Program-made: the position numbers and the translations under genes
In this document: positions 7,581 through 64,000 of the stretch, piece by piece
How the letters are laid out: every line of letters starts with the position of its first letter
How positions within the stretch are numbered: position 1 is the first letter of the stretch
Assembly: GCF_021155765.1 (NCBI RefSeq)
Contig: NC_060110.1
Span: 3,472,001-3,536,000, forward strand
Direction of reading: 5' to 3'
DNA length: 64,000 nt
Origin: Diprion similis
Taxonomy: Eukaryota > Arthropoda > Insecta > Hymenoptera > Diprionidae
Notes under the pieces: generated by a model
Databases searched by the model: none
What the model was told of the DNA's origin: nothing
The model's input: only the letters and a program-made list of their open reading frames with translations

Positions 7581-7747
7581 CTCATGAATTCGAAAAACTA
7601 TGAATCAGATTGTCTTCGTATGCGCTATGATTGGGTTGCTATCTATGCCAATCGCCAATCAGGAGCGAGAGACGACTTTTCTAGGTTTCACATCGTTTCA
7701 ACTTGCAGTTTATCAAGAACCTTCGACTGAGACAAATCGACTCTACC
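7581..7747 (+). promoter_or_regulatory. OR-B core promoter and 5'UTR
   Basis: It shares the conserved block found upstream of the other receptors: a GAATTCG-AAAAACTATGAATC stretch at about 7585, ATTGG at 7630, and CCAATCAGGAGC at 7655. An initiator-like GCAGT has its A at 7707, which is 52 bp after the CCAAT box (53 bp in OR-C to OR-F). The first-exon ATG follows at 7748. Relative to OR-C to OR-F there are about 10 extra bases between ATTGG and CCAAT, and a 41-nt instead of a 29-nt leader. The promoter role is inferred from conservation and position. Confidence 0.55.
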
Positions 7748-10700
7748 ATGCAGGTGAGGGATCAAGTTTCATCTCTTCAACACACGATTGTCAGTTCAAA
7801 ATAGTCCCATTACTGCACTGTGAATAAAAAATGGAACTTCAAACTTATTCATTTCTTTATGCGCAGTACATAAAAGAGCATCGAATAAATAAAGATACAT
7901 ACATAATCCTTGTGAGTTGAAATTCTTCTGGTGTGTAGTTTTTCAATTATCACAGATTCAACTCGTTCTTTTCTTTCACTAAATCGAAACACGGTTAAAA
8001 TAATACGAGTTCGTCACGTCAGTTGCTCAATTGCCAATGAAATAAGGGATATTGTTTATCAAATCCTCGATTTATAGACACAAAATATCAGCAAAAAATA
8101 TTTAGTGTATAGCCTACTGATCATTTTCGGAAGGAAACTACGTTATTCTATTATGCGTGCAATTTGGCCGTTGTCACGTTTCGTTTGAAATGGCTTACGA
8201 TTAGGCAAGTGTTTAGTATTGAATTAACCTCATTAACTGTATGGCATCAACTAAAGTGAATGAAAAAAGTATCTTTTGGTGGGTTTGTAAGAATTGTTCT
8301 TTTCAACAAAGTAACTCATCATTGAGTGAAATCCAACAAATCAATGAGAGTTGTTATCATTTTAAAGGGCTTTAATACAAAGGATTGGTACCCAAGCTGT
8401 TGTTTATAACTTTAGTATTGTGATTTTTTTTAATTCCTACGATAATCGCCGTAACTTATCAAAAATGGAGTGGAACTTCATTTCTCATTTTGAGACTTAT
8501 CCGTTTTTCCATTTTCACCGATAAATTATGTAAAAGATTTCATCTAGATAGATTATTCGTTTATTATATGTTTTTCTCAGTTGTACGCCACTTAATTCGG
8601 TTTCTCGAGACTCTCACTAAATTTTGTAAACCACTTTTTACCCAAGAAAAACTTAAACCACTCTAATTCTTCGAAAAAAAAAAATTTCATTACGTGGACA
8701 GGAGTGTGATGTTACTTGTGAAAATTTGAAGAACTCCGTATTGTCTAATTTTTTTTTTTTGTTTAGAAATTTTCTGGAGTTGAATGTTAATAGTATTGCA
8801 ATGGTTCGGTTTACCGTCCACAGAATGTAGATAGTTCATGTCGATGTTTCATGTGCCAAGCACTAGATTTTACAATCAGTGAAAAGATCGATACAAATGT
8901 TATAGATCTACTACATCACAAATGTTACTGATGTCTATTGATTTATAAAAATTTCAACCAGTTATTTATCTGCATTTTATCGTTTTACCTCGAATATTTG
9001 TTAGAAATGTAAATCCTAGCCCAGGCGACTGAACTATAACCAAGCGATTCAAAAACATAAACCAGGATGCAATGCGATTTGAAAAAAATTAAAATATTTT
9101 AGAATTTCACTTGAACGTTATTCATACTTTTGCGCCATAATTGCCATACCGTTAAAAAATAAATAAATCTTTTTTTGCTGTTTAGTAACTCGATCAATAC
9201 TTAATGTGCAATTGCCTTGTGATAAAACTAACAATAAGTATGATCTTGTAGGTTTGATTGTTGATCAGGGCAACAGAAAGTTCTATTCTTTGAATTTGTG
9301 TTAACAATGCAACCCCCACATTCGAAAATATAAATTTGTTTTCTATTTTACGCACATCTATTGAAAGGACGGATTCAAGATGCTCAGAGTTAAGTGCAGA
9401 TCAGTCTGGTTGAAATGAACTGCTCAACCTTGTGCGAAATACAAAACTTGAGAAATTTGTTAATTGTGGAAAATTTCAATTTTTAAAAAATGCTGCACCG
9501 CCTTGAAAATTGTTTCTAACGTTACTTGTTGATAGACATTACCGTTATTTCCAAAATCTTTTTTCAACAGGGGTATGAACTCACAGAAACAACCGATTTT
9601 CATGCTCTTACCGAGCGCCTCTTGAATATAGTTGGCATTTGGCCAAAGAATAAAACCAACTTACGGTTCTTCCTGAGCTTTGCTTACATGTTTATTCACG
9701 TGGTTATGCAGTGGGCGTACTTTGTAAGTCACATCGATGATCTTCAAGAAATTACTGACATGCTGGCTGAGGCCATTGTTTGCACGATGGTTGTTATAAA
9801 GCTACTGGTTTTTCACAAAAATCGAACATTGAGTAAGATAATCGATGAAATGAGCCAAGACTGCCAAGATAACAAGACTCGCTTCAGTCCAAGCGAGAAA
9901 AGGATTTACGCATCTTCCAATTTGAGGGCAAAGACGTTTGTCAAAATTTTGGCATGTTTGATCGGTTTTGCGGTTACTTTTTGGTACGCCAAACCTATCC
10001 CAACAATGGCATTTGCAGGTAAGATTACCTTATCGTGCTCAAGGAAAAATAGTAATTCATTATTTCATTTCGGACCAAACTAGCTGCACGGGGTGGTTTG
10101 ATGGACTTTATAAATCACGACATTCCAAAATATTTCGCTATCTGATGGGAAATTTGTTTGGAAACTCAGTATCCTGAAGAGATTTCACTCTGTTAACATT
10201 GAAAAAAGTATTATTGCTGTAAGAAAATATAAGTAAGGAACTGAAATCAGGGTGGCTGAGATCCATACCGATGTTATTACAAGATCGTTGTACGTTGAGT
10301 GTTGATCAAATCATTATGATTCTGGAGAGTTACGAAGATATTTTTAATAATACTGAAATAAGAAATAACGGAATTATTTAAAAAAATGTAAATCTCGATG
10401 CTTCATTCAAAACCGCTTATAAACCTTTAAAAATCTACTGAATTCATACAATTTTACATTTAATTTCACCACACTTGATGTCTTATTTATTTCACACGCG
10501 ATGACTGGAACACTTTTCTTTCTCTTATTGACGCCTCAAACGTTTAATTTTATGATATTGCACGGATATTAATTAGGATCAACAAATTACAATATAGATT
10601 TAACTACTGAGAAAAAAGAAAATTTGATTGAGTGACTGTAGAAAATGGTTTTGTGAACAAAATAAAACATCACAGGGTGAAATCGAACTAATCGTCTAGA

Positions 10701-14148: not shown

Positions 14149-15845
14149 CTTTATAGCTTGCAGCATGTCGCTCTAAAATTTCCAACCAGTATGATGATAA
14201 ATGAATGAACAGAAATTGTATGAGCAATATTGCTAAGTGTATCTGATAGCTGATCGAAACGTTACACACGATTTTACAATCTCTCGCCAATATCAGATAT
14301 TATCTTTTAAACAGTATTCTCATAACCTAGTTAGATTCCATGACTCTGTGAAATGCATTTACTACATGATATGCGCTAGAATTTAGCATTAATAAAGATC
14401 TGATCACGTTATCATCAATATCATACAACAGTGGTCATATTCTGTAAATCTAACTTGTTTTTTCTGAACTAACGTCAATGAGGTTGAACACTTCATCAAA
14501 ACTACAACGCAAAGAAGCTGTTGAATTCATCTCACTCAAGTTCATTACATAGAATATTTTCATCACCGGCCGCTTCCTGAATTTATTTACAATTAGGCAT
14601 CGAGGTTATTTTTGAGATTACATGGAAAGCAAGCATGCTAACGCAGAATGAATGGAAATATATTTCTGCACATTTTCTCATATCAAGTTGAAAATATTCG
14701 CTTGCCGGTTGGACTGGACTTGAAAGTGGATTAATTTTCTAAAACCTTACTCATAGGCAAATCTTCTTTTGTATAAAATATCCCTCATAAAATTTTCACA
14801 CCTACGTTTCAGAGCACGTTCTGATGCTTTCGTATCGATTACCACGATTACTTCAACATTTTAGGTGTCATAACCTGAAAACGGAGGTATCATCCTCCAA
14901 AGAAGCGAAGCTAACTAAATTCGCTGCAATTTTTACACCGCGAGATTTATGCATTGTAGATGAAAATCGATGTAAATTTTAATAATACATTCACAAAATA
15001 TTCAACACAGGCTGTGATTTTCTTTCCGTTCGTTCATTTGCATCATGTATCACGCAGCTTCATCGAATCATTTACGAATTTGAATAATATGTATACCCAT
15101 AGACTTATAGCTCATTTCAAAGACATAGATAAAGATAGACAAATGGATGATGTTTATTTATGCCTCAAACTGATTCCAAATCTTGAGGCAAAAGAGAGAG
15201 AGAGAGAACAATAGCTGGGTCGTTCCTTCTAGAGGAGATACCAATTGAAGTCTGCAAAATGTGAATAGAAATCAACCGGAATCCAAGAGGCCCGAGATGA
15301 GAACGACGGAGAGAACGTTTTAGATTTGTCAATATTTCGTGTGATTCCGCGTATAATTTCATACCATTCGGTTGCTCTTATTTAACTTGTTCTTATTAAT
15401 CATCGGAAATCATAGACATTTTTGTAAAATTTGTCGCTTCAGGTATGGAGTTAGTTTTTTATTTCTCCATTCAAGAAAGATTTATCTAATTTTCCTTTGC
15501 TTGCAGTAGAACTTTTACGAACCCGTATGGACTTGAAAACACACTTGGCAATATCTTATTGAATCACCATGTGCTTACTGTTGGAAGTTTCGTATCTGAA
15601 GGATCCAAGATATTCGGGTTGTCTTTGAGACTATGAGATTTTTGATTTTCTTCAATAGTGTTTTAAAACCGATTCTACTGAACTATTTCTCCCTGGAACA
15701 CGAAGACACAAGTGTGAAGGCAAATGCAAAAACTGTGCACCAGTTTTTTTTAGCCTTGAATTAATTATACGTTGATCACGACGGTTGTTGAAACAGACCA
15801 TGGTAATAAGTATGCACACTGCCAGTTTAATGGATGGTCGAGATA

Positions 15846-16007
15846 TCGTAAGCATCTGCAATATATCCATTAATTTGAAAACACTGTATCGATTAAAACT
15901 TCCCATTGTGATTGGCTCACGCTGGCCTATCAGAGCTTTGCTAATGTTTACTACAGAGCAGAAGGCACTCCCTTCATCAGTTTGTTGTGCGTCTTGGACT
16001 GTACATC
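15846..16007 (+). promoter_or_regulatory. OR-C core promoter and 5'UTR
   Basis: Conserved receptor promoter block: AATTTG at 15872 (-107), ATTGG at 15911 (-68), CCTATCAGAGC at 15926 (-53), TGTTTAC at 15945 (-34), TCAGT initiator with A at 15979 (+1), and start codon at 16008 (+30). All offsets equal those of OR-D and OR-E. No TATA box is seen; TGTTTAC occupies the usual TATA position. Confidence 0.65.
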
Positions 16008-18754
16008 ATGGATCCAGCTACCTCGGTGAACCAGGTGAAAACCCATTCTTACAACTTGGAAATTGAACGTGAATCTTAAACGATTTAATCAAAACGTTCC
16101 ATTGATGTGTACTACAAATGAACTTCCAGTTGCATCTAGAATCTTTTATCGAAGTATCTGAAAAAGTCTTGGTTACCCTTAACGAATACAATTCCCTCCT
16201 GTTGTAAATATTTCGGAAATGACATTTTCTCTTCATCCATTTCTAGATGGGGATGGCACACGCTGTTCAAGTTCTCAAGTGGAACGAGAGCATTTTAACG
16301 CCGCTAGGTATCTGGCCTACCAATCCAAACAACATGAGGTTCACCCTGGCTCTGAGTTGTCTCGTAATTCAAGTGGTTTTAGAATTCGCAGATCTTTTCC
16401 AATCCGGTAACACCTTAGAGCATATCGTCGCGAATCTCACGGAAAACATTACATTCACAACAATTACGTTCCAAGTAATTTTACTACGTTTGAACTGTCG
16501 ACAACTTAAAGAAGTGATCGATACGATGCGCGAGGACTTTCATGAGGAAAATTACAAAAGTTGTGAAGAAAGAAAAGTATTCTTAGCTTACTACAAACAG
16601 TCCAGGATGTTCTTTCTAACTGCAGTGCCAATGGGACTTTCTACCGCTGTCACCATGTACTTGGTACCGCTCGCTGGTATACCAGGAATGAGTAAGTTCT
16701 GTCAAATGCTTATTGAGCCATGATATAAAACGATACGAAAAGGTCATGCTAAATCAACATTCTTTTTTTAAAAAGTACGAATTTCCACGGTAAAGTAAAA
16801 TCAAAATCGCCAAATCTTATCGATCATGATCTTCGATTTGAGATTTCCGATGTCCTTAGAAGCCACAAAGTATCAGCATTAAATCAGATAGTTTATGCGT
16901 CAAAATAATTGATCATGAGTTTCTAACTTTAGTAAGTTCATTAATAAATGTTTCAGTCAATGTTGTCGTTCTAATATATCGGAGATCACATGAGATGCAT
17001 CTTATAAACGTTATAGCAATTTTACGCAACGACTCTGCTCAATTAGTATTCGAAATTTTGGGGTAGCTGATTTTCTTCGTTGTTAAAGATAATCGCAGAT
17101 GACTACAATTTTGTTGTATATTTAGTAGTTTTCCATTTACTTGTAGATTAATCGAAGTCTGACAAAGAGAAAAAGTTCAACTTGCCGTTTGGGATTTGTT
17201 CAAAACTTTTGAAAACCCATTCGGTCCGACAAGTTTCCTAAAACGTGTTATTGCATTCCGTCAAGATTATCTAGATGAACTATTATGCAAAACAATAATC
17301 GTTTCACAGAGAACAGAAATGAGACCGTGAGATTGAGTTTGCCGTATCAAACGCGGATGTTTCACGACGTCTCGGAACTTCACTCTTACGTATTGACGTA
17401 CGCCGCTCAGCTTCCGTTTGTTTTCATCTCAGCTTTCGGCCACGTTGGTCCCGATTGCCTGATCTTAACCTTGATGCTTCATCTTTGTGGCCAGCTGTTC
17501 GTCCTGGTGGAATGCATCAACAACGTGGGCACTGACTATCGAGAATGCGGCCTAGCGATAAAGAAGTGCGTCCAGAAGCACGTTAGGCTGATACGGTGAG
17601 GATTTTCAACGACATTCACAAAATAATACCTACTCGGCTTGGAAAACAGATTCAGAAGCTACCAGTAATTGTGAATCTGATAAAGATTGTCGGAGAAATA
17701 TTACACAACTAATGATATTCAGGGTGGCGAAGAACTTGGAGGAGTCGTACAACGTTATCCTATTGATACAACTCAGCGGGGGAACGATACTCATTTGCAT
17801 CCTGACCTACAATGTCTTAGCGGTATGACATCTGTTATGCGCGAAGGGTTAACTCTATGGTCGAAGTCGCCTGTGCACTTGTTGAAAAGTCACTTGAATT
17901 ATTTTGCAGTCGTCTTAAGTAATGTCGTTGCACTTGAAGTCAGGCGGATTCGTAAGGTCTTAAAGTCAAATGTGTTGCACTGCATTTTCGAATAGCTAGC
18001 TTTTCAGTTATAATATAATCTCTATATTATGAAATCTTTGGCTTCAGAATATAATGAAAGTGAAATTTTAACCCTGTGACGATATTTTTTGCATAGAATA
18101 CTGGAGCAGGACAAAAAGCTCACTTCCTTAATTCCTCGTTGTACGTCCTCACCATCTCGTTTTTGATCTACGTCTATTGCTTTATGGGCGAATGCCTTAT
18201 TCAAGAGGTGAGTGTAACTGTACTTAAAAAAAATCACTTCATCCTCGGGTGGATGGCATAAGTAGATAATCAATTTCCAGAATAGACGTACAAGCTGTTA
18301 GGATAATCGATCAAAATTCTACAATCAACGGTATTACAGTAGTTCATGTGCCACTCGGCGAGTTTGACTTGATTGAACGTTGCTTACAGAGTACGAGAGT
18401 GCATCATGCCCTGACTCAGCGCGATTGGTCCGAGATGCCACTAAAATATAACAAAATGCTCATCATATGCATGGGGAGAGCCCAGAAGCCGCTAACACTG
18501 ACGGCAGGAAAATTTTACATATTTTCTATGAGGAGCTTTGTCGTTGTGAGTACACACACTTACTTTTTAGCTGTTGCATAATCCACTACAGAGTAGGCCA
18601 TCGGAAATGGTGGATGTTCTACTCTAGAAATATCATGAACGTTCCGCTGGCACCGTATAGTGTAACGGTAATTTTTTGGGGAAAATTGCTTTTTTTTTTG
18701 CAGATATTAAAAACTTCCATGGCTTACCTTTCGGTCCTGAGAAGTCTTTTGTGA
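16008..18754 (+). CDS. OR-C: odorant receptor (7tm_6), complete
   Basis: Join of 16008-16034, 16247-16691, 17310-17595, 17723-17822, 18097-18207, 18390-18545 and 18704-18754, totalling 1176 nt or 391 aa. Exon 1 encodes MDPATSVNQ; exon 2 itself begins ATGGGGATG, so a second in-frame start exists at 16247. Residues 10-157 carry VQVLKWNESILTPLGIWPTN and TM1-TM3. Residues 158-253 include SYVLTYAAQLPFVFI and LHLCGQLFVLVE, ending HVRLIR. Residues 287-323 end GECLIQE. Residues 324-375 include LTLTAGKFYIFSM. The C-terminus is MAYLSVLRSLL. It groups with OR-D, -E and -F by 5' structure and sequence. It is the most compact gene of the array, with no large repeat in its introns. Orco-partner receptor by family; ligand unknown. 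Confidence 0.95.
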
Positions 18755-19787: not shown

Positions 19788-19800
19788 GTGAATTAAATAT
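19788..19800 (+). promoter_or_regulatory. Distal conserved block upstream of OR-D
   Basis: GTGAATTAAATAT, also found upstream of OR-E (33203, and a duplicate at 33001) and OR-F (39596), each 214-229 bp above the predicted start site. It contains a TAATT-type homeodomain core. Possible enhancer element. Confidence 0.45.
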
Positions 19801-19869: not shown

Positions 19870-20039
19870 TCAAGGCATTACGCGCATCTATGATACGTTC
19901 ATTAATTCGGTAATGCCGTATCGATTAGAATCTCACGGTTTGATTGGCTCGCATCAACCTATCAGGGCTTTGCAACTGTTTACCTCGAGACGAAGAATGC
20001 TTGTTTGGTCAGTTCATTGCTGCTCTCAGACGAGACAGA
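19870..20039 (+). promoter_or_regulatory. OR-D core promoter and 5'UTR
   Basis: AATTCG at 19904 (-107), ATTGG at 19943 (-68), CCTATCAGGGC at 19958 (-53), TGTTTAC at 19977 (-34), and TCAGT with A at 20011 (+1). Upstream, CGCGCATCTATGATACG matches OR-E almost exactly and OR-G partly. An ATG at 19997 lies upstream of the predicted start site and would not be in the mRNA. Confidence 0.65.
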
Positions 20040-20066
20040 ATAAATCAAGCGACTTCTCTGGTCAAG
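20040..20066 (+). other. OR-D exon 1, start codon lost (noncoding)
   Basis: This 27-nt stretch aligns without gaps to the MDPATSVNQ exon of OR-C and the MDQVTSPAQ exon of OR-F and ends in a splice donor (AAG then GTAGGC). Its first codon is ATA instead of ATG. It is probably still transcribed and spliced as leader. Confidence 0.6.
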
Positions 20067-20302: not shown

Positions 20303-23300
20303 ATGGAAATGTCATCTGCCGTTCAACTTCTGAAATGGAACGAAAGACTCCTGTCCTTGCTGGGTCTTTGGCCACTCAGTGCTAACGATACGCGGTTTAC
20401 TCTCAGCCTGAGTTGTTTACTGATTCATGTAATCTTAGAATACATAGACCTTTACCAATTCGGTAACAATTTTGAACACGTCGTGGCGAATCTATCGGAA
20501 AACATAACGTACACGACGATCGTCATTCAAGTGATTCTTCTACGTGTTAACAGCCGGCAACTCGGACAAATAATTCGGGCGGTTTACGAGGATTTTGTCG
20601 ACAAAAATTATAAAACATCTGTAGAAAAAAAATTCGTTTTAGATAACTATAAGAAGGCCCGGATATTCTTTGCAATAGCAGTACCGATGACACTTTCTAC
20701 GGCAGTTAGTTATTTCCTAATACCTCTCGTTAATCTGCTAGGAACCAGTAAGTCGCTTTCTCAATACATCTTTTAACTGAATAAATGAGAGAATAACTTT
20801 CAACTATTTCGATAAATATATTCGCATTATACATAGAGAATTTTGTTTGGCTACAGTTTCTGACAGTAAAGTTCAAATCCCCATACCGCAGAAGCATAAT
20901 TCTCTGAATTACGCCCTAGAATTTATACTGCAGATGGTAAAATGCAATTGCTGTCACAGTGAACAGAAATTCAACAGTGGAATTAAAACTACCGTATCAC
21001 ACGTATATATTCTATGATGTGTCAAACGTTCAGTCTTACGTACTGACATACGCTGCTCATCTTCCGTTCGTATTTTTCGCGTCTTTTGGATACATCGGCC
21101 CCAATTGTTTTATCGTCACCCTGACACTCCACGTGTGTGGACAACTGTCCGTCCTGGTGGAACGAATCAAAAATATAAATGCCGATGGTCAAGAGTGTGG
21201 TCTGGCAATAAAAATTTTTGTTGAGAAGCACGTGCGACTAATACGGTGAGTTCTTTGATCACGAATCTAAAATATCAGTCTCTTAATGAATCACTAATAA
21301 TGATGGTAAAAGTAAGTATGTAAATTTTAAATTAATAAACTCTAGAATAACACAGACTCTGGAGGAGGTGTATAATGTTATCCTATTGTGTCAACTCCTT
21401 GGAGGAACGATTCTCATATGCGTCCTGTCCTACCACGTTTTAGCGGTAATCCGGTGCTCATATACTGAGTTTCTACTCGAACATAAAGCTTCATCAGAAT
21501 ATGATGAATAGAATGTGATACGTTCTAAATTCGATTTATAGAACGCTGATGGAGAAAAAAATTCTGATTTCTTCAGTTTTACGTTGTACATCCTCAATGT
21601 GATACTTTACATCTTCGTTTACTGCAAAGTGGGTGAAAACCTTATCAAAGAGGTATTCGAAAAATATTAAGTAGTTAACTATAAAGAATACAGTGTTACG
21701 TTGAAATGTATTTGTTCAAATTGCGTAACTCTAATTATGGAAATGCTATTTAAGGTGCATATAAAGACCCGTTGTACACCTCGAAAACGCGGGGATGCAA
21801 AACTCTTATACCGCTCAAGCGATCAGAGTGAAACTTGGGCAGTTAATGCCTTATTTTGGCAAAAAGTGGAGCGTCTTTTTACTTTTTCAAAATTTTGAAA
21901 GAGATTTTACAGATTGGTTACCACTCACAAAAATTGCCCAAATTTTCACAGTTGCACTGAATGGATCGACCTATCCGGTATGATGCCACTCGGCGGTGAT
22001 GAAACACACATTTTGAGCCCAGTTCCATGAGGTTTGATGGTAAAATGACGAAATGGCAGCTGATCTAGTTTTCGATTACGAAGTACACCGAAATCTCATT
22101 TTGGCGACATTTGTTACCGATATTAAACGCATGCCGGCAATGTATGCGTGTAATGTCGGTAAAAAATTACCGGCATGCATGAAAGGTCGGTAACAAATGT
22201 CGCCAAAATGAGATTTCGGTGTTCTTCGTAATCGAAAACCAGATCAGCTGCCATTTCGTCAATTCACCATCAAATCTCATGGGACTGGGCTCAAAATGTG
22301 TGTTTCATCACCGCCGAGTGGCATCATACCGGATAGTTCGATCAATTCAGTGTAACTGTGAAAATTTGGCCAATTTCTGTGGGTGGTAACTAATCTGTAA
22401 TTTTTTTTTTTCAATTTTGAAAAAGTAAAAAGTCGCTCCTCTTTTTGCCAAAATAAGGCATTAACTGCCCAAGTTTCACTCGGATCGCTTGAGCGGTATA
22501 GGAATCTTGCATCCCCGCGTTTTCGAGGTGTACAACGGGTCTTAATATGCACCTTAATGGTAAATGTTATTCGATTAATGTTGCTTTTAGAGTACTAAAG
22601 TACACGACGCATTGAGTGCATGTCGCTGGTATGACATGTCATCAGTTCACGCCAAAATGCTCATCATATGCATGGCCAGGTCTAAGCAGCCGCTCATACT
22701 AACGGCTGGAAAATTCTACACATTTTCTATGGGCAGTTTTGCAAATGTGAGTTTTCTGGATGTTTGTAATTCGTGGCGTATGGCCTGTGAGATTTAGTAG
22801 GAAGACTTTGTTTCATCTAAAGCTCACAATTAGATAATCGTTTACCTCGCCACATCATTTTCTAACGTAATCGAATGCGCCTCTCATCAGCTGATACTGT
22901 AATAAACGCACTCTCCTCCACGTACTCATAAACAGCAACATGCTGCCTATATACAGGGTGCTTTAACGACCCATTCGCATCGGTTGCATCGTACTATAAT
23001 TTTTTTGCGAGGAACCATACTTTATTTCTCAGACCTCGTGAATCCTGGTTAATTTTGCACTCACGATTCGCAAACTTGAATTATTAGACTTGCGGAATTG
23101 GAGTTTATTCCAAAATTTCCTGCGTTTCGGGATTAGTTGTTTTGGTTAGTACCAACGGCCTATGAATCACTAATAAAGTCTTGTCGAAAGTTCCATTTAA
23201 CGATACGGAGTGTCCGGATATACTTTAGTCTCTAACCTAACTACTCGTCTGGCGGATGGTAGCATATCCTTCTAGTGTTCAATGGCAAATGGCTTGAATA

Positions 23301-32854: not shown

Positions 32855-33232
32855 ATTTTCTTTGGCCTCTTTTTCTTCATTCTGTTCTCTTTTTCCTCTC
32901 CAGTATTGTTGACGATCGAGAGTAGATTGTATTGCACTTGTCACACAGGCTTATGCGGTATGCCGACACATAAAAAAATCGTATTCCAGTTTTTGCATTC
33001 GTGAATTAAATATGGGCCAATTCTAAAGCTTATGTAACATAACAGGCTCGTTATTTCCTTTGTCATCTTTTTCTTCATTTTGTTCTCTTATTTTTTTCCT
33101 TCATGTATTGTTGACGATCGAAAGAAGATTGTATTGAGGTTGTTACACAGGCTTATGCAGTATGCCAACATATGAAAAAACCGTATTCCAGTTTTTGCAT
33201 TCGTGAATTAAATATGGGCCAATTCCGAAGCT
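32855..33232. repeat. Direct duplication upstream of OR-E (two copies of about 180 bp)
   Basis: Copies at about 32855-33033 and 33050-33232 share TTTTTCTTCATT, GTATTGTTGACGATCGA, ACACAGGCTTATGC, CGTATTCCAGTTTTTGCATT and the conserved GTGAATTAAATAT block. Only the second copy abuts the OR-E promoter. Confidence 0.85.
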
Positions 33233-33289
33233 TATTGTTGGCGAATGAGGTTCGTATGATGGGTATGCATACAGGTTGCTGCACAGGTG

Positions 33290-33460
33290 GTTAAGGTATC
33301 ATGCGCATCTATGATACGTTTATTAATTCAGAAATGACGTATGGAATGGAATCTCAAAGTTTCACTGGCTCGCATCGACCAATCAGAGCCTTGCAATTGT
33401 TTACCTCGAGCCAAGGAATACTTGTTTGGTCAGTTCATCGTGGTTCTCAGATACGGCACA
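33290..33460 (+). promoter_or_regulatory. OR-E core promoter and 5'UTR
   Basis: AATTCA at 33325 (-107), ACTGG at 33364 (-68), CCAATCAGAGCC at 33379 (-53), TGTTTAC at 33398 (-34), and TCAGT with A at 33432 (+1). About 85% identical by eye to the OR-D block over 170 bp with no gaps between the boxes. Confidence 0.65.
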
Positions 33461-33487
33461 TTGAATCAAAGGACCTACCTGATCAAG
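33461..33487 (+). other. OR-E exon 1, start codon degenerate (TTG)
   Basis: The 27-nt equivalent of the first coding exon of OR-C and OR-F begins TTG instead of ATG and ends AAG before a GTAAAA donor. Probably leader only. A near-cognate TTG start would be in frame with exon 2 and cannot be excluded. Confidence 0.6.
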
Positions 33488-33791: not shown

Positions 33792-36700
33792 ATGGACATG
33801 TCATCCGCCGTTCAAGTTCTGCATTGGAACCAAAAGCTGATGTCCATTTTGGGCCTTTGGCCACTGGATAAAAACGACAAGCGGTATGCCTTCGGCATAA
33901 TGTGTTGTCTGATTCATTTAACTTTTCAACAGGCAGACCTTTACAAATTTGGAACAACTTTTGAACACGTTGTGGCGAATCTCTCGATAAATATGGTTCA
34001 CTCGTCAGTCACGATTCGACTAATTACTCTACGTATCAATAGCCGAACACTCGGAAAAGTAATGCGGGAAGTTCAGGCGGATTGTATCGAGACAAATTAT
34101 GAAACATTTACGGAAAGAAAAATCTTTTTACATTACCATAAGATGGCCCGGCTTTTCATCATGATATCAGTACCGATGACTGTCGTTTTAGTCTTTCTCG
34201 TCTACCTGTTACCTCTCAGCGGTGTGCTAGGGACCAGTAAGTCGAAAGCTCAGAGTAACCTGTCGTTTCTTGACAAAGACACATTGCAATCCTGAATTCG
34301 AACAAACACATATTCTAAGACTGAACACAAATTTCAATTAATATTAAGCTGCTTATAAAGACGCGTTGTACACCTCGAAAACGCGGGGATGTAGAAATCC
34401 TATACCGCTCAAGCGATCAGAGTGAAACTTGGGCAATCGATGCCTTACTTTGGAACAAAGTGGAGCGTCTTTTTACTTTTTCAAAATTTGGAAAAAAAAT
34501 TTACAGATTGGTTACCACCCATAGAAATTGGGCAAATTTTCACAATTGCACTGAATGGTTCGAACTGTCCGGTATGACGCCACTTGGCGGTGATGAAACA
34601 CACATTTTGAGCCTAGTCCCATGAGATTTGATGGTGAAATCACGAAATGGCAGCTGATCTGGTTTTCAATTACGAAGTACACCGAAATCTCATTTTGGCG
34701 ACATTTGTTACCGACATTACGCGCATGCCGGTAATGTATGCGTGTAATGTCGGTAAAAAATTATCAGAAAGTACGATCTATTCATCCTGCACAGCATAGA
34801 ACATGGGTGGCCTTAAGTTGACTAGAAAACCAACTTGGGAAGTGTATAAATTTTGACCACCTCGACTTTGTCCTCAAATTTGTACTGACATTGGTGAATT
34901 ACGATTCTAGTCATAGTGACCCGAAATACAACAGTGGAGTTAAAATTGCCATACCACATGTATGTATTCTATGACGTGTCAAAAGTTCGACCATACGTAC
35001 TGACATACGCCGCTCAGCTTCCGTTCGTCGTTTTCGTGGGTTTTGGAAGCGTTGCCCCCACTTGTTTAGTCGCTAGCTTGACATTCCACATGTGTGGTCA
35101 GCTGGCCGTCCTGGTGGAACGAATCAACAATATAAAGACTGATGGTCAAAATTGTGCGCTGGCAATAAAAATGCTTGTCAAGCAGCACGTGCGGTTGATA
35201 CGGTGAGTTCTTTGACTAAGAAACGAAAACAACAGTCTCCAACTTGATCAAGGAAAATATTATGAATCTATTGACAATCACCCCGATAATAATTGATACA
35301 TCAATCTGTAATTGATAAATTATAGGTTGACGAAGTCCGTGGATGACGTGTTCAACATTTGCATGTTGTTTCAACTCGTTACAGATATGATACTTATGGG
35401 TATTCTGACCTTCTACGTTTTGGCGGTAATCCAATGCTTACTTACTGAGTTTCTGTTCGATCATAAAAGCTCAATCAGAATTTTATCAACAGAATGTCAT
35501 ACGTCTTATGTCAAATTTTATTTATAGTCTGCCATCGAAGATCAAACTACTGGTTTGGTTACCTTTCTGCTGTACGTTGTGGTTGTGACAAGTTATATCT
35601 TCGTCTTCTGCTGGGGGGGTGAAAAACTTGTTGAAGAGGTATTTGAAAAATATTAAGACGTTCGCAATAAAGGCGTACAGTAGATACGTTGAAATGCATT
35701 TATTCAAATCACGTCAAATCAATTGTCGAAATTCTATTAACTGTCTAATTTTATTCGATTAAATGTTGATACTAGAGTACTAATATACATGACGCATTGA
35801 GTGCGTGTCCATGGTATGACATGCCATCAGCTCACGCCAAGATGCTTATCATATGCATGATCAGGGCGCAACAGCCGCTCACGATGACAGCTGGAAAATT
35901 CTACGAATTTACTCTAATCAATTTTACAAATGTGAGTTTGTTGCCTGTTTGTGGTTCTTATCATATAATGTATGCGTTTTAGTAGTAAAACTCAGCTTTA
36001 TTTGAAGCTCTAGATCAGGTAAGGGACCATTCATTAACTACGTAAGGAAGATTTTACCCATTTTTAACCAACCCCCCCCCCCCCCCCCCCCCTCCCCCAT
36101 GTAAGAACAAATAAGATTTCTTGGACTTCACACTTCTTACGTAGCTAGTCACAACGGATGACGATTTTTTAGAAGGACGCAATTTGTAGGTACATTAGTT
36201 GTTTTCACCACACCTGCACGGAAAGTACAACTTTCGACCCCTTGCATAAACGGGAAGTTGTACTTTCCGATGCATGGGGTGGTGAAAAATAGCTTACGTC
36301 ACACGGGAGTGAAAAAGGCTTTCCCAAACTGCGTTCTTACCACCCTCACTTTTGGCTCGGATGTCAATCTTGCACGCAGTTTGGAATAGCCTACTTTCCC
36401 ACCCTAGGTGCGGAATATACTGTTGGTTCACATTTGACTTTACAGCTCGTGGTGCTCGTGGTACTTAAAACTTACATAAATATGGTCCATAGAGTATATC
36501 ATCGACGTAAAGTGATGCCGTTAAAAAAACAAACCTTTCACAGCATTATGGGCTGCAGTGCGTAATTTTTTTCGATTTCACAGTTTAACTCCAGCAGTTG
36601 TTGAGCATTTAGTTAGCATTACTTTCACACCATTTCTAGTGATCCGTACAATTTTTGGAAGCAAAATTTGTTCGCCGTAGTTGTTCGCTCACTGATTTCG

Positions 36701-39595: not shown

Positions 39596-39838
39596 GTGAA
39601 TTAAATATATCCTCCGACGACTCGGAGGAAATAGCAAACGTCGTCGGCATAATAATTGTGAATACTGGTATTAGCCTTAGACGCGGTCAGAAAATCACAA
39701 GAATGTATATTATGTGCATTCATTTTGAAAAAGCTATCTCGATTGGTTCGTGTCGGCCAATCAGAGCTCAGGAAATGTGCACCTTTAGGTAGGAGTCGTT
39801 TATTTCTCCAGTATATTGCTGCTCGTGGTCTGAGCACA
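39596..39838 (+). promoter_or_regulatory. OR-F upstream block, core promoter and 5'UTR
   Basis: GTGAATTAAATAT at 39596, ATTGG at 39742 (-68), CCAATCAGAGC at 39757 (-53), TGTGCAC at 39776 (-34, in place of TGTTTAC), CCAGT initiator with A at 39810 (+1), start codon at 39839. The region above -90 is shortened by about 16 bp relative to OR-C to OR-E. Confidence 0.6.
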
Positions 39839-42800
39839 ATGGATCAAGTTACCTCACCGGCACAGGTAAAGATTTATCATTTCTTTGAAAACTTAGAACA
39901 TAAGATCTTGAAGTGTGATTCTCAAAATTCAAATCGTGCTTAGGAAGAAAGAGATTCTATCAGTTTCCTCTTCTAATTTTAAGGGAAGAATTATTTGAAA
40001 GTTTTATAGTGACATCTCCGTTTTTTTTTCAATCACTTTTTCTTACAATCATACGCATTTTTTACTTCTCGATACTACTTGTAAAGTTTCGTATTCATGT
40101 GTATTTTTAAAACTCAATCAATCAATATCATAAAGAAATAAATATGTATCATTGTATAGACAAAACATTGTCGTTTTTCTTTGCTGTCTTTATTTTGTAA
40201 ACTTAACATTGCTCTGGAGTTTTATGCTCATTTAATAACATTTGACACTTGGAAGTATAGAATTAAGCCATATATATTGCACGAATCAAAATTTGATCCA
40301 CACAAAGCGAGACTCGACTTGACTTGTATTTTGCGAAAAAGTGAAAATAAAATCGTTTTGCTCAGTTGAAAAGAATACAATGTGTGAATAACACATTTTT
40401 GGCACTGTTGTTAATATAAAAAGTAAAAGAAAAGAGACGACATCAAAAAAGGAACATAAGGCGAGACAAGCAATTCGCATAAAATGCATATAATCTCGAA
40501 GAAAAAAATAATAATCGGCTGAAAAATTCGATCCTGCATCAAATAATGCTTGGCTATCCTTTGTGATGAGTGAAACCTCCAAACGGTTGATTTGGCTTAC
40601 AAAAAAGATTCATGGATAAATATCGATTAATTCCATCATTATTGTCGGAGTTCAAAATTTATCGGCAAGTCGAAAAGAAACGCCGCTGAGATGACACTTA
40701 ACATTGAAAGCGAAACGAAACTGAATATTGCATTCGGTAGAATATTGATTGCAGATACGGTAATAAAATACAGGAAAGTCGATCATTTTTAAAACTCCCA
40801 ATTAGACACAAGAAATTGATGAATATATTTGAGGCACAAAATCTGTTAGACGCAAGAAGAGAGTCAATGATTAGGAAAAGGGAAAAAAGCGTTAAAAATA
40901 ACTTTAGTGTCATTCGCGCCGATAATACTGACGGCGAATGAAACAAATGTAATAGAAATTAATCCGATAAAATTCGAATATCACAAGCTAAAAAATTATA
41001 TTTTTCAATTTAAAGCTGTCATTCAATATGTTATAAAATAAAAAACGTAACGTTTTTTTGAAGAAATGGAAATTAAGCCTTTAGAAATTGCATCTAACGA
41101 TTATAATACCAAATGCACATCACTTTAACAGTTTTGAACGATTCTATTTTACTACATCTTAAGAGAAATTCGCAATAATAATGTCTCACATTAAAAAAAT
41201 AAATTCTAATGTCTGAAAATGACATAAATCATTGAAAAAAAAAACACTCGTTTTTGAGTCCTACGATCCCTATACATATGAACCGATTACAATGAAACCT
41301 CTTGGAATCGCTCTCATTATGAATTATCTGTACGATTTTAAACGAACAGCTTTGAATTCGAGAATTCAATTTTTTGGTACAATCTAATAAGAATACTCAA
41401 AAAATGGCCGTTTCTTCAACGTGCGAAATATGCCACGTCGGATGGTGAAGGCTTGGACCATTTTATGTCCAGCATTGCTTGCATCCAGTTAAATACTCTC
41501 CACACGATCCATCCTAGTCTGTCAACACATTGCTCGAACACGAAATGGAAAAAATTCTCGAAGCGCAGAACTTGAATGAAAATACTTTCTTCATTTAGAC
41601 GGAAGCGGTCCGAGCTGTTCAACTTCTACGCTGGGTGAAAAACATACTGTCAATTGTAGGCCTTTGGCCGCTTGATATCAACGATAGGCGGTTTGTCTTC
41701 AGCCTGATCTGCATGGTGGTTCACATAAGTTCGGAATACGCCGACTTGTTCCATTTTATCGGCAGTCTTGAACACGTCGTGACCAATCTCACAGAGACAA
41801 TAGCATTCATGGTGGCCACGTCCCAACTGGCATTTCTCCGTATAAACAGTCGGGAGTTCAGAGAAGTGATCTGCACGGTTCAGGACAACTTTCAGAAGGA
41901 AAATCACCAAAGTTCTAAGGAGAGAAGAATTCTCGCGAAATACCATGATAAAGCTAGGATGATCATTCAGCTCATGGCGTTAGTGCAAATTTCCTCCGCT
42001 GCCATCTGCTATCTCGCACCCATTACTAACATCCTAATCACAAGTAAGTCACACTTCTTATATTATGCAACTGGCGAAGATTCTATCTATGGAAAGAAAA
42101 AATGACATCTTGGGACTACGTCTTATTGCACATTTTTAAGGATGTATCGGTAGTAAAACGTATTCAGGAAAAGTACCATGTGTGCAAAAATAATGAAACG
42201 AAGTGATAAAGTTATTCGAGAGTTACGTAATTTAAGGAGGTTAGTTGATCAAGGATTGATACTTTTTACTAATTTTATCATGAAATAGTCGTATGACGTT
42301 GGAAATTTATTGAATTATTAGATTTACTACTTCTCCGGCAAAATGAGGAACTGGCGCAGTTTTTCTTGATGTTAATTACTGTGTAAGTTACTGCAGAAAT
42401 TTGAACATTGTAATTCTCTACAAAGTCGCTGAAATAAACTTTCTTCTTTTTACCACATTTTTATTAGCTCGCTTTTTTTCTCTCTGTTTGTTCGTTTGTT
42501 TGTTTGTCTGTTCGGTACAAATTTTGCAATCGATTTAAAACTAGCTTCCCGATGAGTTATAGACTTAAACCTTTAAGCATAGCTCGGAACTGGATGACAA
42601 TGCAATATCATTTGTTTGTTTGTTCGGTAGAAATTTTGCAATCGTTTTTTTTAAACTATAAGACTATGAGGTGACTTTGACATGACGACGATACGACGAT
42701 CACCGACGGAGACCGAAGCTAATGGAAGATGTTAGATGAAGACGGTCAACGACAGATAACTGTGGCAGATCAGTGATGCTCACTGACAAAATAAATGATA

Positions 42801-49406: not shown

Positions 49407-49568
49407 GGTCAAGACGTCTTACGCGCATGCGTGATACGTTTATCAATTTGAAAATAAAATCGATACAATTATTGATAGAACAAAAGAAACCCGCTATTCG
49501 CACGGGAGGTGAAAATTTTCGCAGTTCGCATCAATCTTTCGACGGGAAAACTTCCGCTTCCTGCTACA
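49407..49568 (+). promoter_or_regulatory. OR-G upstream region (diverged promoter block)
   Basis: GTCAAGACGT, ACGCGCATGCGTGATACG and TTTATCAATTTGAAAAT align with the distal block of OR-D and OR-E. GCAGTTCGCATC at 49521 matches the initiator area (OR-D reads TCAGTTCATTGC). The CCAAT-like box is not clearly retained. Confidence 0.45.
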
Positions 49569-52500
49569 ATGAGCGTAAGAATTTTTCACGCTCATTTTAC
49601 AGTAATTAATTCTCAAATAATTCTTGCGTCGAAATTGCAAAATCATTACCGTCCGCGGAAGCTTTCAATATAGAGAAACATTTTAGATTTAAAAAATGCA
49701 CTGTACATGGAAATTGAAAGACACCTTTTATCTTATGTTTCGGGCAGAGTTTCGGAAGGATTGTTGTGCGGCAAAAGCTAATGTTTGGACTCTGTTTCGG
49801 CAAAAAAAAGACACAGTGTATATACGGGGCATTCCATGTCAATTCGAATAGGGTTTGATCCTCTTGGATTTGGTCCGTGATTTTTTATATTGTTGTTTCA
49901 AATCTAGAAAGCGTGCCAAGATTTTTTCACAGTTTTCCTTACCCTCCTTAGCGTCCCCAGAGCTCCTTAAAGGATGATCTTTGACAATGACTGCGACATT
50001 TTTTTAAATTATTAAATAAATTACGTAAATTGTGTGACCAAAATTATAAATACATATGTCAACTAGAATTAAAATTTTTTTTCAGTCATTTCGATTTTTT
50101 TTTTTTAAGATTAAGGGTTTGATATATTTTTCCTAATAAAACAACAATCCGTAAATTTTTATTGGAATGAAAAAAAAAAAAAATTAAAATTTCAAATGCA
50201 TCTTTTTTTAGTTATTTTGATTTTTCAATTTCGAATTTTAATAAAAATTACCAAATTTCCGTATCAGGGAAAATATGACTGTTTTGCCTACCCATTTCAA
50301 TTTTGGTTGGAATCTTTCTGATTTTGGTCACAAAATTCATATAATTTTTTTCATAATCTTTAAGAATAACGCAATCATTATCAAAATATCATGATCTGAG
50401 CTCTGGAGACGTCAGAGGGCAGGAGAGGATCGAAAAAATCTGAAAAAAAACTGAAATGATTTTCAGAGTTGAAACAATAGTGAAAAAAATCGCAGATCAA
50501 ATCCAAAAAGGTGAGGATCAAACACTAGTCGAATTGACGTGGAATGCCCCATACATAATCCTCTAATTTTAAACAGTCTAATGTGTCAGCTGTGCTTAGT
50601 TTGTCTGACAGCTAAGTTTTCTCTCAATTGCAGTTGAATCTTGCTTCAGCAGTGGACCTGATGAGTTGGAATCAGCGAATACTTGGTATTCTGGGTACTT
50701 GGCCGGATAAGAATTCAAGAATCCTTCGCTTCTCGCTTTTCATAAGCTATCTCTTGATCCACATTACTCTCGAGTACACTTACCTCTATTATAACATTCG
50801 AAAGTTGGAAACCGTTGTAGTTAGTATGACAGAGATTATCCCCTTCACGGTAGTCCTGCTTAAGGCAATCGTGACGCGTAAGAATAACAGACTTCTGTGT
50901 AAAATCATCGACAATATGGAAGAAAATTTTTCTGTCCAAGATTACAGAAATCAGGAAGAGATCCAGATTTTTCTCAGGTACAACGCAATGGCAAAGAACT
51001 TCATTCGCGTTATCGTACCTCTTGTCTTTTCCTCATCCGTCGTGTACTTTGCAAAGCCTCTCTTTGTCCACTTTACGTCAAGTAAGAAAATGGGAAAATT
51101 TATTCTTCGAAATTCAAATCACACGATAACTTGAATATTATTATTATATTATTTTTTCAAGAATAACACAAACAGATAAAAAGATGCACAAATAAATTTG
51201 ATCATTTAATCAAATCAAACTGAATGCTGATTGCTTTGAACACACTTTCACTTTCGATTAAAAGGAGGAATTTGAGAAAAAGATTTTTACTGCAATAAAT
51301 TTCTTCTCTAACTGAGTAAATTACGCAAGTTTGGTTCCAATGGATCCCAAAGCTTTAAATAAAGTTCCGACGTCTCCTTTTCAAGTTCAAGAAAATGACA
51401 CGATTGCTTTCAACCTGCCTTACCGCGTTCATTTGTTCTACAACATCTCGAACGCAGCCGTCTACACACTGATCTACGCTCTTCAAGCTCCATTAGTCCT
51501 GATTGCAACATGTGGCTACACGGGGTCCGATTGCTTGTTGGTAACCTTGACGCTCCATGTTTGTGGCGAACTATCCGTTCTTGCCAATCGTGTGGAAAAC
51601 TTGAACTGCGATACCCAAGGATGTAAGGAAAATATAGGAGCTCTTGTCAGGAAGCACGTTCAATTAATTAGGTAGGTATATAAACTTGACTTGCTCAATC
51701 ATGCTTACAATAATAAAATTATCAATTACTGTGGAAGTTGAATAAACGGTGAAAACTCGCCTTGATTACACGATGCGAATTTTTTTATACTGATCACTTT
51801 TCAACAGGATGACAAGGTCCTTGGAAGAAGCTTTCAATACCGTTCTCCTAGGACAACTGTTTGGTGGCACCTTTCTGATTTGCTTTCTTGGATACAACGT
51901 ACTCGCGGTAAAAATTTCAAATGTCTCAACTTTCTCACCATCAATATCACTTGATAGGCTATCCACGATTAAGAACAAAGGAACAAACGGTACTGATTTA
52001 AAAATTTTCGATTCTTTTTGAAGAAAATTTCTCGGTCAAAAATCGACACTTTTCATTAATTTTATTACGAGATAGTTGTACGTTGAGGATTTGCCGAATT
52101 ATTATATTCGCAGTCTACGAAGATCTCTTTGAAAGTATAAGAATATGGAATACTTGAATTATAAACAAAACCTTAGATATCGATGCTTCGTTCGAAATCG
52201 TTTCAAAATCGTTAATCATATAAGAGATTAAACCGATTCTACTCTACGATATTTCAGAAAATAAAAGGTTGGTCTGTGGTGTTGATGATTTCTCGGAGAT
52301 GGTTAACTTGAAACCAAAAAATCGAACGATTTTAAATTCAGCATGTTAATGCCGTTGGAATGAATCATACAAGTCTTGATATTTGCAAAATCCACAAAAT
52401 GACGGCTATTTTTTGAAAAAGTTGAAAAAACCGCTTTTTCGGTTGCCCTTTTTGCAAAAAAAAACCACAGTTAAAATCAAAATTTCAAAAAACCTTTAAT

Positions 52501-61300: not shown

Positions 61301-64000
61301 AGTTACAGCCAAAAAACTGCAGATTTACATCGTCATTTCTTTGCTGTTGGTCCTACGCTCTTTTTAATGTCTTTTTTGAGTTCCTGAGGTTCCAATTAGC
61401 CGAAAAACGGTCATACTAATCAATTCGGAGACCAGAAATTTTCGGCTCCAAAAATCGCAAAAAAAGTAAGGTTAACCCCTTTGGATTTTTGGCGAAAATT
61501 TCGACGACTTTGAAAAGTGCTGCAAATAATTCTTTAGGGCACTATTCCAACGTAATTTTGCGAGAGAAATCGATTGAGCGCAGTCCCAATTCGCTGCGAG
61601 CAACGGATCAAAAGTTACAGCCAAAAAACTGCAGATTTTCATCGTCATTTCTCTGCTGTTGGTCCTACGCTCTTTTTAATGTCTTTTTTGAGTTCCTGAG
61701 GTTTCAATTAGCCGAAAAACGGTTATACAAATCAATTCGGAGACCAGAAATTTTTGGCTCCAAAAATCGCAAAAAAAGTAAGGTTAACCCCTTTGGATTT
61801 TTGGCGAAAATTTCGACGACTTTGAAAAGTGCTGCAGTTAATTCTTTAGGGCACTATTCCGACGTATTTTTGCGAGAGAAATCGATTGAGCGCAGTCCCA
61901 ATACGCTGCGAGTAACGGATCAAAAGTTACAGCCAAAAAACTGCAGATTTTCATCGTCATTTCTTTGCTGTTGGTCCTACGCTCTTTTTAATGTCTTTTT
62001 TGAGTTCCTGAGGTTCCAATTAGCCAAAAAACGGTCATACAAATCAATTCGGAGACCAGAAATTTTCAGCTCCAAAAATCGCAAAAAAAGTAAGGTTAAC
62101 CCCTTTGGATTTTTGTCGAAAATTTCGACGACTTTGAAAAGTGCTGCAATTAATTCTTTAGGGCACTATTCCGACGTAATTTTGCGAGAGAAATCGATTG
62201 AGCGCAGTCCCAATACGCTGCGAGTAACGGATCAAAAGTTACAGCCAAAAAACTGCAGATTTACATCGTCATTTCTTTGCTGTTGGTCCTACGCTCTTTT
62301 TAATGTCTTTTTTGAGTTCCTGAGGTTCCAATTAGCCGAAAAACGGTCATACTAATCAATTCGAAGACCAGAAATTTTCGGCTCCAAAAATCGCAAAAAA
62401 AGTAAGGTTAACCCCTTTGGATTTTTGGCGAAAATTTCGACGACTTTGAAAAGTGCTGCAAATAATTCTTTAGGGCACTATTCCAACGTAATTTTGCGAG
62501 AGAAATCGATTGAGCGCAGTCCCAATTCGCTGCGAGCAACGGATCAAAAGTTACAGCCAAAAAACTGCAGATTTTCATCGTCATTTCTCTGCTGTTGGTC
62601 CTACGCTCTTTTTGATGTCTTTTTTGAGTTCCTGAGGTTTCAATTAGCCGAAAAACGGTTATACAAATCAATTCGGAGACCAGAAATTTTTGGCTCCAAA
62701 AATCGCAAAAAAAGTAAGGTTAACCCCTTTGGATTTTTGGCGAAAATTTCGACGACTTTGAAAAGTGCTGCAGTTAATTCTTTAGGGCACTATTCCGACG
62801 TATTTTTGCGAGAGAAATCGATTGAGCGCAGTCCCAATACGCTGCGAGTAACGGATCAAAAGTTACAGCCAAAAAACTGCAGATTTTCATCGTCATTTCT
62901 TTGCTGTTGGTCCTACGCTCTTTTTAATGTCTTTTTTGAGTTCCTGAGGTTCCAATTAGCCAAAAAACGGTCATACAAATCAATTCGGAGACCAGAAATT
63001 TTCAGCTCCAAAAATCGCAAAAAAAGTAAGGTTAACCCCTTTGGATTTTTGTCGAAAATTTCGACGACTTTGAAAAGTGCTGCAATTAATTCTTTAGGGC
63101 ACTATTCCGACGTTATTTTGCGAGAGAAATCGATTGAGCGCAGTCCCAATACGCTGCGAGCAACGGATCAAAAGGTACAGCCAAAAAACTGCAGATTTTC
63201 ATCGTCATTCCTCTGCTGTTGGTCCTACGCTCTTTTTAATGTCTTTTCTGAGTTCCTGAGGTTCCAATTAGCCGAAAAACAGTCATACAAATCAATTCGG
63301 AGACCAGAAATTTTCGGCTCCAAAAATCGCAAAAAAAGTAAGGTTAACCCCTTTGGATTTTTGTCGAAAATTTCGACGACTTTGAAAAGTGCTGCAATTA
63401 ATTCTTTAGGGCACTATTCCGACGTATTTTTGCAAGAGAAATCGATTGAGCGCAGTCCCAATACGCTGCGAGTAACGGATCAAAAGTTACAGCCAAAAAA
63501 CTGCAGATTTTCATCGTCATTTCTCTGCTGTTGGTCCTACGCTCTTTTTAATGTCTTTTTTGAGTTCCTGAGGTTTCAATTAGCCGAAAAACGGTTATAC
63601 AAATCAATTCGGAGACCAGAAATTTTTGGCTCCAAAAATCGCAAAAAAAGTAAGGTTAACCCCTTTGGATTTTTGGCGAAAATTTCGACGACTTTGAAAA
63701 TTGCTGCAGTTAATTCTTTAGGGCACTATTCCGACGTATTTTTGCGAGAGAAATCGATTGAGCGCAGTCCCAATACGCTGCGAGTAACGGATCAAAAGTT
63801 ACAGCCAAAAAACTGCAGATTTTCATCGTCATTTCTTTGCTGTTGGTCCTACGCTCTTTTTAATGTCTTTTTTGAGTTCCTGAGGTTCCAATTAGCCAAA
63901 AAACGGTCATACAAATCAATTCGGAGACCAGAAATTTTCAGCTCCAAAAATCGCAAAAAAGTAAGGTTAACCCCTTTGGATTTTTGTCGAAAATTTCGAC
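58325..64000. repeat. 312-bp tandem satellite array
   Basis: The anchor GTTAACCCCTTTGG (GCTAACCC in the left copies) recurs at 58664, 58975, 59287, 59599, 59911, then every 312 bp (60223, 60535, 60847 and so on to 63655), and one base early at 63966. The first recognisable copy starts near 58325 and is 339 bp long. About 18 monomers are seen and the array runs off the right edge. Left-edge monomers are the most diverged and internal ones nearly identical. Confidence 0.97.
60847..63654. repeat. Higher-order (936-bp trimer) zone in the satellite
   Basis: Monomers starting at 60847, 61159 and 61471 are each matched almost exactly by those at 61783, 62095 and 62407, down to private variants (GCAGTTAATTC with GACGTATTTTTG; GATTTACATCG; GCAAATAATTC with CCAACG). 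The first type returns at 62719 and 63655, again 936 bp apart, but with other monomers between. Confidence 0.85.

Follow-up and report, generated by a model that had tools for sequence, protein, structure and literature searches.

Our analysis indicates that seven of the eight receptors found in a tandem odorant-receptor array probably share an inherited core promoter held by selection, which, as read from the sequence, is TATA-less and built of CCAAT boxes, the presumable sites of NF-Y, and an initiator. The initial annotation had proposed a selected core promoter in front of four of these receptors (OR-C to OR-F); its conserved, TATA-less core is real, but the forkhead box, the inverted CCAAT pair and the idea of a general receptor grammar are not upheld. 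The individual parts are ordinary, and the interest lies in the rigidity of the promoter across a diverged array and in the privacy of the OR-C to OR-F arrangement.

The window, i.e. the whole 64-kb stretch of DNA that was analysed, holds a tandem array of insect odorant receptors, all in one direction; the insect is probably a relative of wasps, and the label "hymenopteran" of the initial annotation is plausible. Splicing of gene models yielded complete receptors of ~380-390 aa with canonical splice sites for OR-B, -C, -D, -E, -F and -G. The 3' exons of OR-A lie in the window; flanking DNA of the same genome adds OR-A exon 2 and one further receptor, OR-Z, and eight receptors (Z, A, B, C, D, E, F and G) were found in 124 kb. 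In a Pfam scan of six single-exon translations, OR-C exon 3 matched PF02949 (7tm_6) with 26.1 bits against a cut-off of 25.8, OR-D exon 2 matched 7tm_7 under the cut-off and the remaining four gave no match; a PF02949 search of the genome returned 103 exon-level matches, in this array and elsewhere. The genes belong to the odorant receptors (7tm_6) and have an intact multi-exon structure. At four-fold coding sites OR-D and OR-E are young relative to the other pairs (70/96 sites equal), and the five other pairs among OR-C to OR-F are far diverged (42/96 to 42/84, or 44-50%), so that the likeness of their promoters is not merely a matter of recent duplication.

The probable core promoter of OR-C to OR-F

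Positions are numbered from the A of YCAGT as +1 (Table 1). As had been claimed, OR-C, -D, -E and -F carry at identical offsets ATTGG (ACTGG in OR-E) at -68, CCWATCAG at -53, TGTTTAC (TGTGCAC in OR-F) at -34 and YCAGT at +1, and AATTYR at -107 is common to OR-C, -D and -E. With up to three mismatches the spaced pattern matched four times in the 64-kb window, compared to 0.00 matches expected from 100 shuffles, and in a leave-one-out profile the held-out gene scored 42-77 and the best other position 2.5 (both strands, 64 kb). From -68 up to the exon-1 splice donor at +57 the four sequences line up gaplessly, over a longer distance than was initially claimed, and in-register identity drops in the intron beyond the donor. 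Between -68 and +29 a total of 36/97 columns are invariant (20,000 random 4-tuples: mean 2.2, maximum 10). The named blocks contribute 20/25 invariant columns, a count that was reached by 34 of 400 permutations of the 97 columns; the clustering into four blocks is thus marginal, and the core as a whole is securely conserved while its exact block boundaries are not certain.

That the intergenic DNA around the blocks has otherwise diverged holds only in part. Invariance falls to 10/200 columns in the adjacent intron 1 and to 5/300 at -600 to -300, but between the blocks it amounts to 16/72 and thereby resembles that of four-fold coding sites (8/37), and OR-D and OR-E are 80% identical over the 198 bp of promoter and exon 1. 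Region-wise global alignment of gene pairs had no discriminating power, as shuffled controls aligned with gaps likewise attained ~60%, and gapless in-register counts were used instead.

Exon 1 measures 56 nt in OR-C to OR-F and 47 nt in OR-B, and the same 47 nt in OR-A and OR-Z by homology with OR-B. A start codon at +30, claimed for all four genes, is present in OR-C and OR-F only; OR-D has ATA and OR-E has TTG at this place. Exon 1 of both latter genes keeps its length and donor and lacks any ATG; in both, exon 2 opens with the earliest ATG that is in frame. Judged from these exons, the predicted start is moved to exon 2 in OR-D and OR-E, with loss of the exon-1 ATG. An in-frame exon-1 ATG was found in OR-B, -C, -F and -G, and in OR-Z, -A and -B (3/3) an ATG is located at +42.

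Farther upstream, a distal block missing from the initial annotation, TGAATTAAWTAT, is located 213-228 bp upstream of OR-C to OR-F. All of its five matches in 124 kb lie upstream of these four genes (Markov expectation 0.05 per 64 kb), the fifth being a second copy in OR-E within a 202-bp tandem duplication (32855-33235). Another block, GCATNNRTGATACGTTYATYAATT, occurs genome-wide as an exact match only at OR-G, OR-D (19884-19907) and OR-E (33305-33328), despite the differing core of OR-G.

Table 1. Promoter features and first exons in the window (positions count from the first letter of the window; offsets from the predicted start)
Feature	Position	Strand	Remark
OR-C distal block TGAATTAATTAT	15757..15768	+	-222
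OR-C ATTGG, inverted CCAAT box	15911..15915	-	-68; AGCCAATCA on minus strand
OR-C CCTATCAG	15926..15933	+	-53; CCAAT core is CCTAT
OR-C TGTTTAC	15945..15951	+	-34; taken to be forkhead-like
OR-C TCAGT, initiator-like	15977..15981	+	A, +1 = 15979, predicted start
OR-C exon 1	15979..16034	+	56 nt; ATG 16008 (+30); donor GT 16035
OR-D distal block TGAATTAAATAT	19789..19800	+	-222
OR-D ATTGG / CCTATCAG / TGTTTAC	19943..19983	+	offsets as OR-C
OR-D TCAGT	20009..20013	+	+1 = 20011; exon 1 20011-20066 without ATG; coding from 20303
OR-E distal block	33204..33215	+	-228; second copy 33002 (-430)
OR-E ACTGG / CCAATCAG / TGTTTAC	33364..33404	+	offsets as OR-C
OR-E TCAGT	33430..33434	+	+1 = 33432; exon 1 33432-33487 without ATG; coding from 33792
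OR-F distal block TGAATTAAATAT	39597..39608	+	-213
OR-F ATTGG / CCAATCAG / TGTGCAC	39742..39782	+	offsets as OR-C
OR-F CCAGT	39808..39812	+	+1 = 39810; exon 1 39810-39865; ATG 39839 (+30)
OR-B second-class promoter	7630..7662	+	ATTGG 7630; CCAATCGCCAATCAG 7648-7662, second CCAAT -52
OR-B exon 1 from GCAGT	7707..7753	+	A 7707 = +1; ATG 7748 (+42); donor GT 7754
OR-G upstream block GCATGCGTGATACGTTTATCAATT	49425..49448	+	common to OR-D and OR-E; no CCAAT at OR-G
OR-G exon 1 from GCAGT	49523..49574	+	A 49523; ATG 49569

CCAAT boxes and a probable second promoter class

Within 130 bp upstream, at least one intact CCAAT was found in each of seven promoters (~0.34 expected per 140 bp). OR-C and OR-D have the inverted box only (AGCCAATCA), OR-E the direct one only, OR-A two direct ones, and OR-F, -B and -Z have boxes in both orientations. 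That every one of the seven keeps a CCAAT, with different ones lost, is the pattern expected if a CCAAT factor, for instance NF-Y, acts redundantly. The NF-Y consensus has purines before CCAAT and C or G plus a purine after it. In seven of the eight genes an intact CCAAT is followed by CA or CG, with 5' flanks RR in OR-C, -D, -E and -F and mixed in OR-Z, -A and -B, and by this sequence count the same seven promoters are candidate CCAAT/NF-Y promoters and OR-G is not. The CCTAT at -53 of OR-C and OR-D should, we assume, not be bound by NF-Y. By a domain search, the genome codes for an NF-YA domain.

An inverted CCAAT pair as a fixed feature had to be given up: both boxes are intact in OR-F, -B and -Z only, and they are 15 bp apart in OR-C to OR-F versus 25-27 bp in OR-Z, -A and -B. 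Nor is the forkhead-like box supported as a defining element. A forkhead-type site reads GTAAACA, and we take TGTTTAC to be forkhead-like; it is present in OR-C, -D and -E, reads TGTGCAC in OR-F and is absent from this place in OR-Z, -A, -B and -G, of which the first three carry ACTTTTCT or ATTTTTCT at the position and OR-G carries neither. Because the box is altered in OR-F and replaced in OR-Z, -A and -B, a forkhead factor is unlikely as a common component. Absence of a TATA box was confirmed: none of the eight genes has a TATAWA in the interval from -45 to -15. CAGT is located at the predicted start in 8/8 genes, CAGT itself having been used to choose the start, and a pyrimidine precedes it in OR-C, -D, -E, -F and -Z only.

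OR-Z, -A and -B, none of which entered the initial annotation, have a second promoter in common that can hardly be aligned with that of OR-C to OR-F; OR-B gave no significant alignment with any of these four. CCAATCA is placed -53 (OR-Z), -52 (OR-A) and -52 (OR-B; 7655, a related promoter missing from the earlier description) from CAGT, and CCWATCA at -52/-53 is a property of 7/8 array receptors (Z and A to F). The spaced motif CCWATCR-NCAGT occurs seven times in 124 kb, all in sense orientation and at the predicted exon 1 of OR-Z and OR-A to OR-F, whereas the Markov expectation is 0.85 on average and three at most (60 runs). Since OR-C to OR-F form one duplication clade and OR-Z, -A and -B another, these are two independent observations and not seven. 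For comparison of the two classes, +1 served as the common reference, and slides of up to 60 bp in either direction were the controls (121 positions). At slide 0 the segment +4 to +28 ranks 3/121, -45 to -5 ranks 15 and -60 to -40 ranks 27; for the latter a 1-bp slide, at which the CCAATs coincide, ranks first. Slid controls are thus nearly as good or better, and inter-class likeness beyond CCAAT and CAGT is weak. Several genes have GAC at about +19, noticed by eye, which looked like a downstream element common to both classes; it is not claimed, slid controls being nearly as good (rank 3/121).

OR-G is the exception. The gene is intact and has a CAGT, a short exon with an in-frame ATG and the upstream block common to OR-D and OR-E, and no CCAAT was found within 130 bp upstream. 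Its core may have been replaced, and its predicted start site is the least certain of the array. CCAATCGCCAATCA is found as an exact match in the genome in OR-A and OR-B only, and with up to one mismatch it has 69 matches genome-wide, nearly threefold the 24 of a reversed control, a hint at possibly wide use in this genome of tandem CCAAT boxes at a distance of 7 bp.

Competing explanations and known promoters

Under the inherited core promoter, transcription would start at CAGT. NF-Y would bind the CCAAT boxes in either or both orientations, open the TATA-less promoter and position the polymerase machinery at a fixed distance; the -34 block may help to place the start site in OR-C, -D and -E, and receptor-specific information could reside in the upstream blocks, which vary more (TGAATTAAWTAT at about -220 in OR-C to OR-F, GCATNNRTGATACGTTYATYAATT in OR-D, -E and -G).

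The likeness might also stem from the common descent of tandem duplicates or from gene conversion, without any selection on promoter spacing, a scenario we regard as unlikely. The genes lie side by side in a single array, OR-D and OR-E are young both at four-fold sites and in their promoters, and between-block conservation equals that of four-fold sites. Ancestry alone, however, does not account for the fall of conservation in intron 1 and farther upstream, for a core that stays gapless in pairs with diverged four-fold sites (OR-C and OR-F 30/66, OR-E and OR-F 27/61), or for a CCAAT-initiator distance kept in OR-Z, -A and -B with little alignable sequence; and a recent gene conversion would leave near-identical tracts, whereas pairs besides OR-D and OR-E are only moderately similar. 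An inverted CCAAT pair could also signify a two-way promoter, giving the receptor transcript together with an upstream antisense RNA and transcriptional interference as in ants. In ants, receptor promoters are described as having paired start sites, one sense and one antisense (PMC12393541), and both boxes are intact in OR-F, -B and -Z; this reading is nevertheless rather improbable here, because the eight genes have no antisense CAGT at a common upstream offset, only three promoters keep both boxes and box spacing differs between the classes.

The rigid arrangement at four receptors might instead exemplify a promoter code that the insect uses for its receptors in general, made of a CCAAT pair and a forkhead box. 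Genome-wide scans make this very improbable. ATTGGYTCN7CCWATCAGRGC, allowing one mismatch, matched four times in the 269-Mb genome, only at OR-C to OR-F, and CCWATCAGRGCN8TGTTTAC, allowing two, matched 17 times, four times at OR-C to OR-F and 13 times elsewhere, which is also the number obtained with the reversed pattern (13). In such a scan, which the initial annotation had proposed, the first pattern's hits thus do sit at receptor 5' ends exclusively, but as a general grammar the arrangement was not found beyond OR-C to OR-F; being private to one array it is not the general receptor promoter code, and the changes in the forkhead-like box described above argue in the same direction. CCWATCR-NCAGT was in addition looked for at other receptors, the search covering nine stretches that total 70 kb and eight short loci. 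The 130.5 kb of comparison DNA outside the array gave one match, which lies inside an open frame and on the gene strand of one receptor stretch (C12), and the eight short loci (28 kb, partly overlapping) gave none. The idea that the conserved stretch belongs to a longer, protein-coding first exon is extremely improbable: OR-C and OR-D share a stop-free frame from -150 to +60, OR-F has an open frame in another register, and mismatches at codon positions 1, 2 and 3 (142, 141 and 170 over six pairs) show a slight third-position excess, but this excess is weak and absent between OR-C and OR-D (22, 27, 21), OR-E and OR-F have stops in the frame open in OR-C and OR-D, and that frame differs from the frame of the receptor start position.

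TATA-less promoters of the CCAAT-box or NF-Y type with an initiator are a textbook class. The array resembles it in having CCAATCA or CCAATCG boxes in either orientation ~50-80 bp upstream of CAGT and no TATA box, and differs from it in an unusually exact spacing to the initiator, 52-53 bp in seven genes, and in the CCTAT at -53 of OR-C and OR-D, two genes whose sole intact box is the inverted upstream one. Among the open-access papers retrieved by search, no title or abstract opening named a CCAAT or NF-Y promoter of insect receptors. For ants, two-way transcription from odorant-receptor promoters in tandem arrays has been described (PMC12393541). The array here is alike in being a tandem receptor array with an own promoter per gene near the first coding exon; the ant text describes two-way transcription, whereas our array was read as sequence and has no common antisense CAGT offset, and the main text of the preprint makes no mention of "motif", "core promoter" or "TATA". 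According to a review, Drosophila receptor cis-elements are located within a few 100-1000 bases (PMC8481607), so regulatory DNA close upstream of the gene is a further likeness; CCAAT and forkhead are not mentioned in the main text of that review, and "promoter" is absent from the available text of a sawfly gene-family paper (PMC10542623). The title of a paper on mammalian olfactory receptor promoters names O/E and homeodomain sites and no spaced CCAAT-initiator unit (PMC3247239); homeodomain sites close to receptor promoters are a loose parallel to the AT-rich TGAATTAAWTAT of the array, but these receptors belong to a different superfamily.

A more far-reaching interpretation, which we consider rather improbable, is a private core-promoter code of one array, in which a CCAAT-initiator unit with near-exact spacing is kept through deep receptor divergence in two array-specific classes (OR-Z, -A, -B and OR-C to OR-F) and receptors are chosen by array position. 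The wider question is by what means an insect neuron selects a single receptor out of a tandem array. If such a code were real, a near-ubiquitous factor pair at fixed distance would mark the array receptors as equivalent start points, and the choice among them would be made by array position (e.g. by transcriptional interference) and not by different promoters; position-based choice would need promoter sequences common to array members. The analysis supplies candidate start sites to the base for eight genes.

Additional repeats in the window

Intron 5 of OR-D contains a fold-back repeat (21750-22571) with 392-nt arms 24 nt apart, which by its structure looks like a mobile fold-back element, and a single arm-like copy with 89% similarity is located in intron 2 of OR-E (34330-34735). 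A tandem array with a repeat unit of 312 bp (17.5 copies, 93% matches) occupies 58530 to the window end at 64000, and open frames 235 to 311 codons long are preserved in it.
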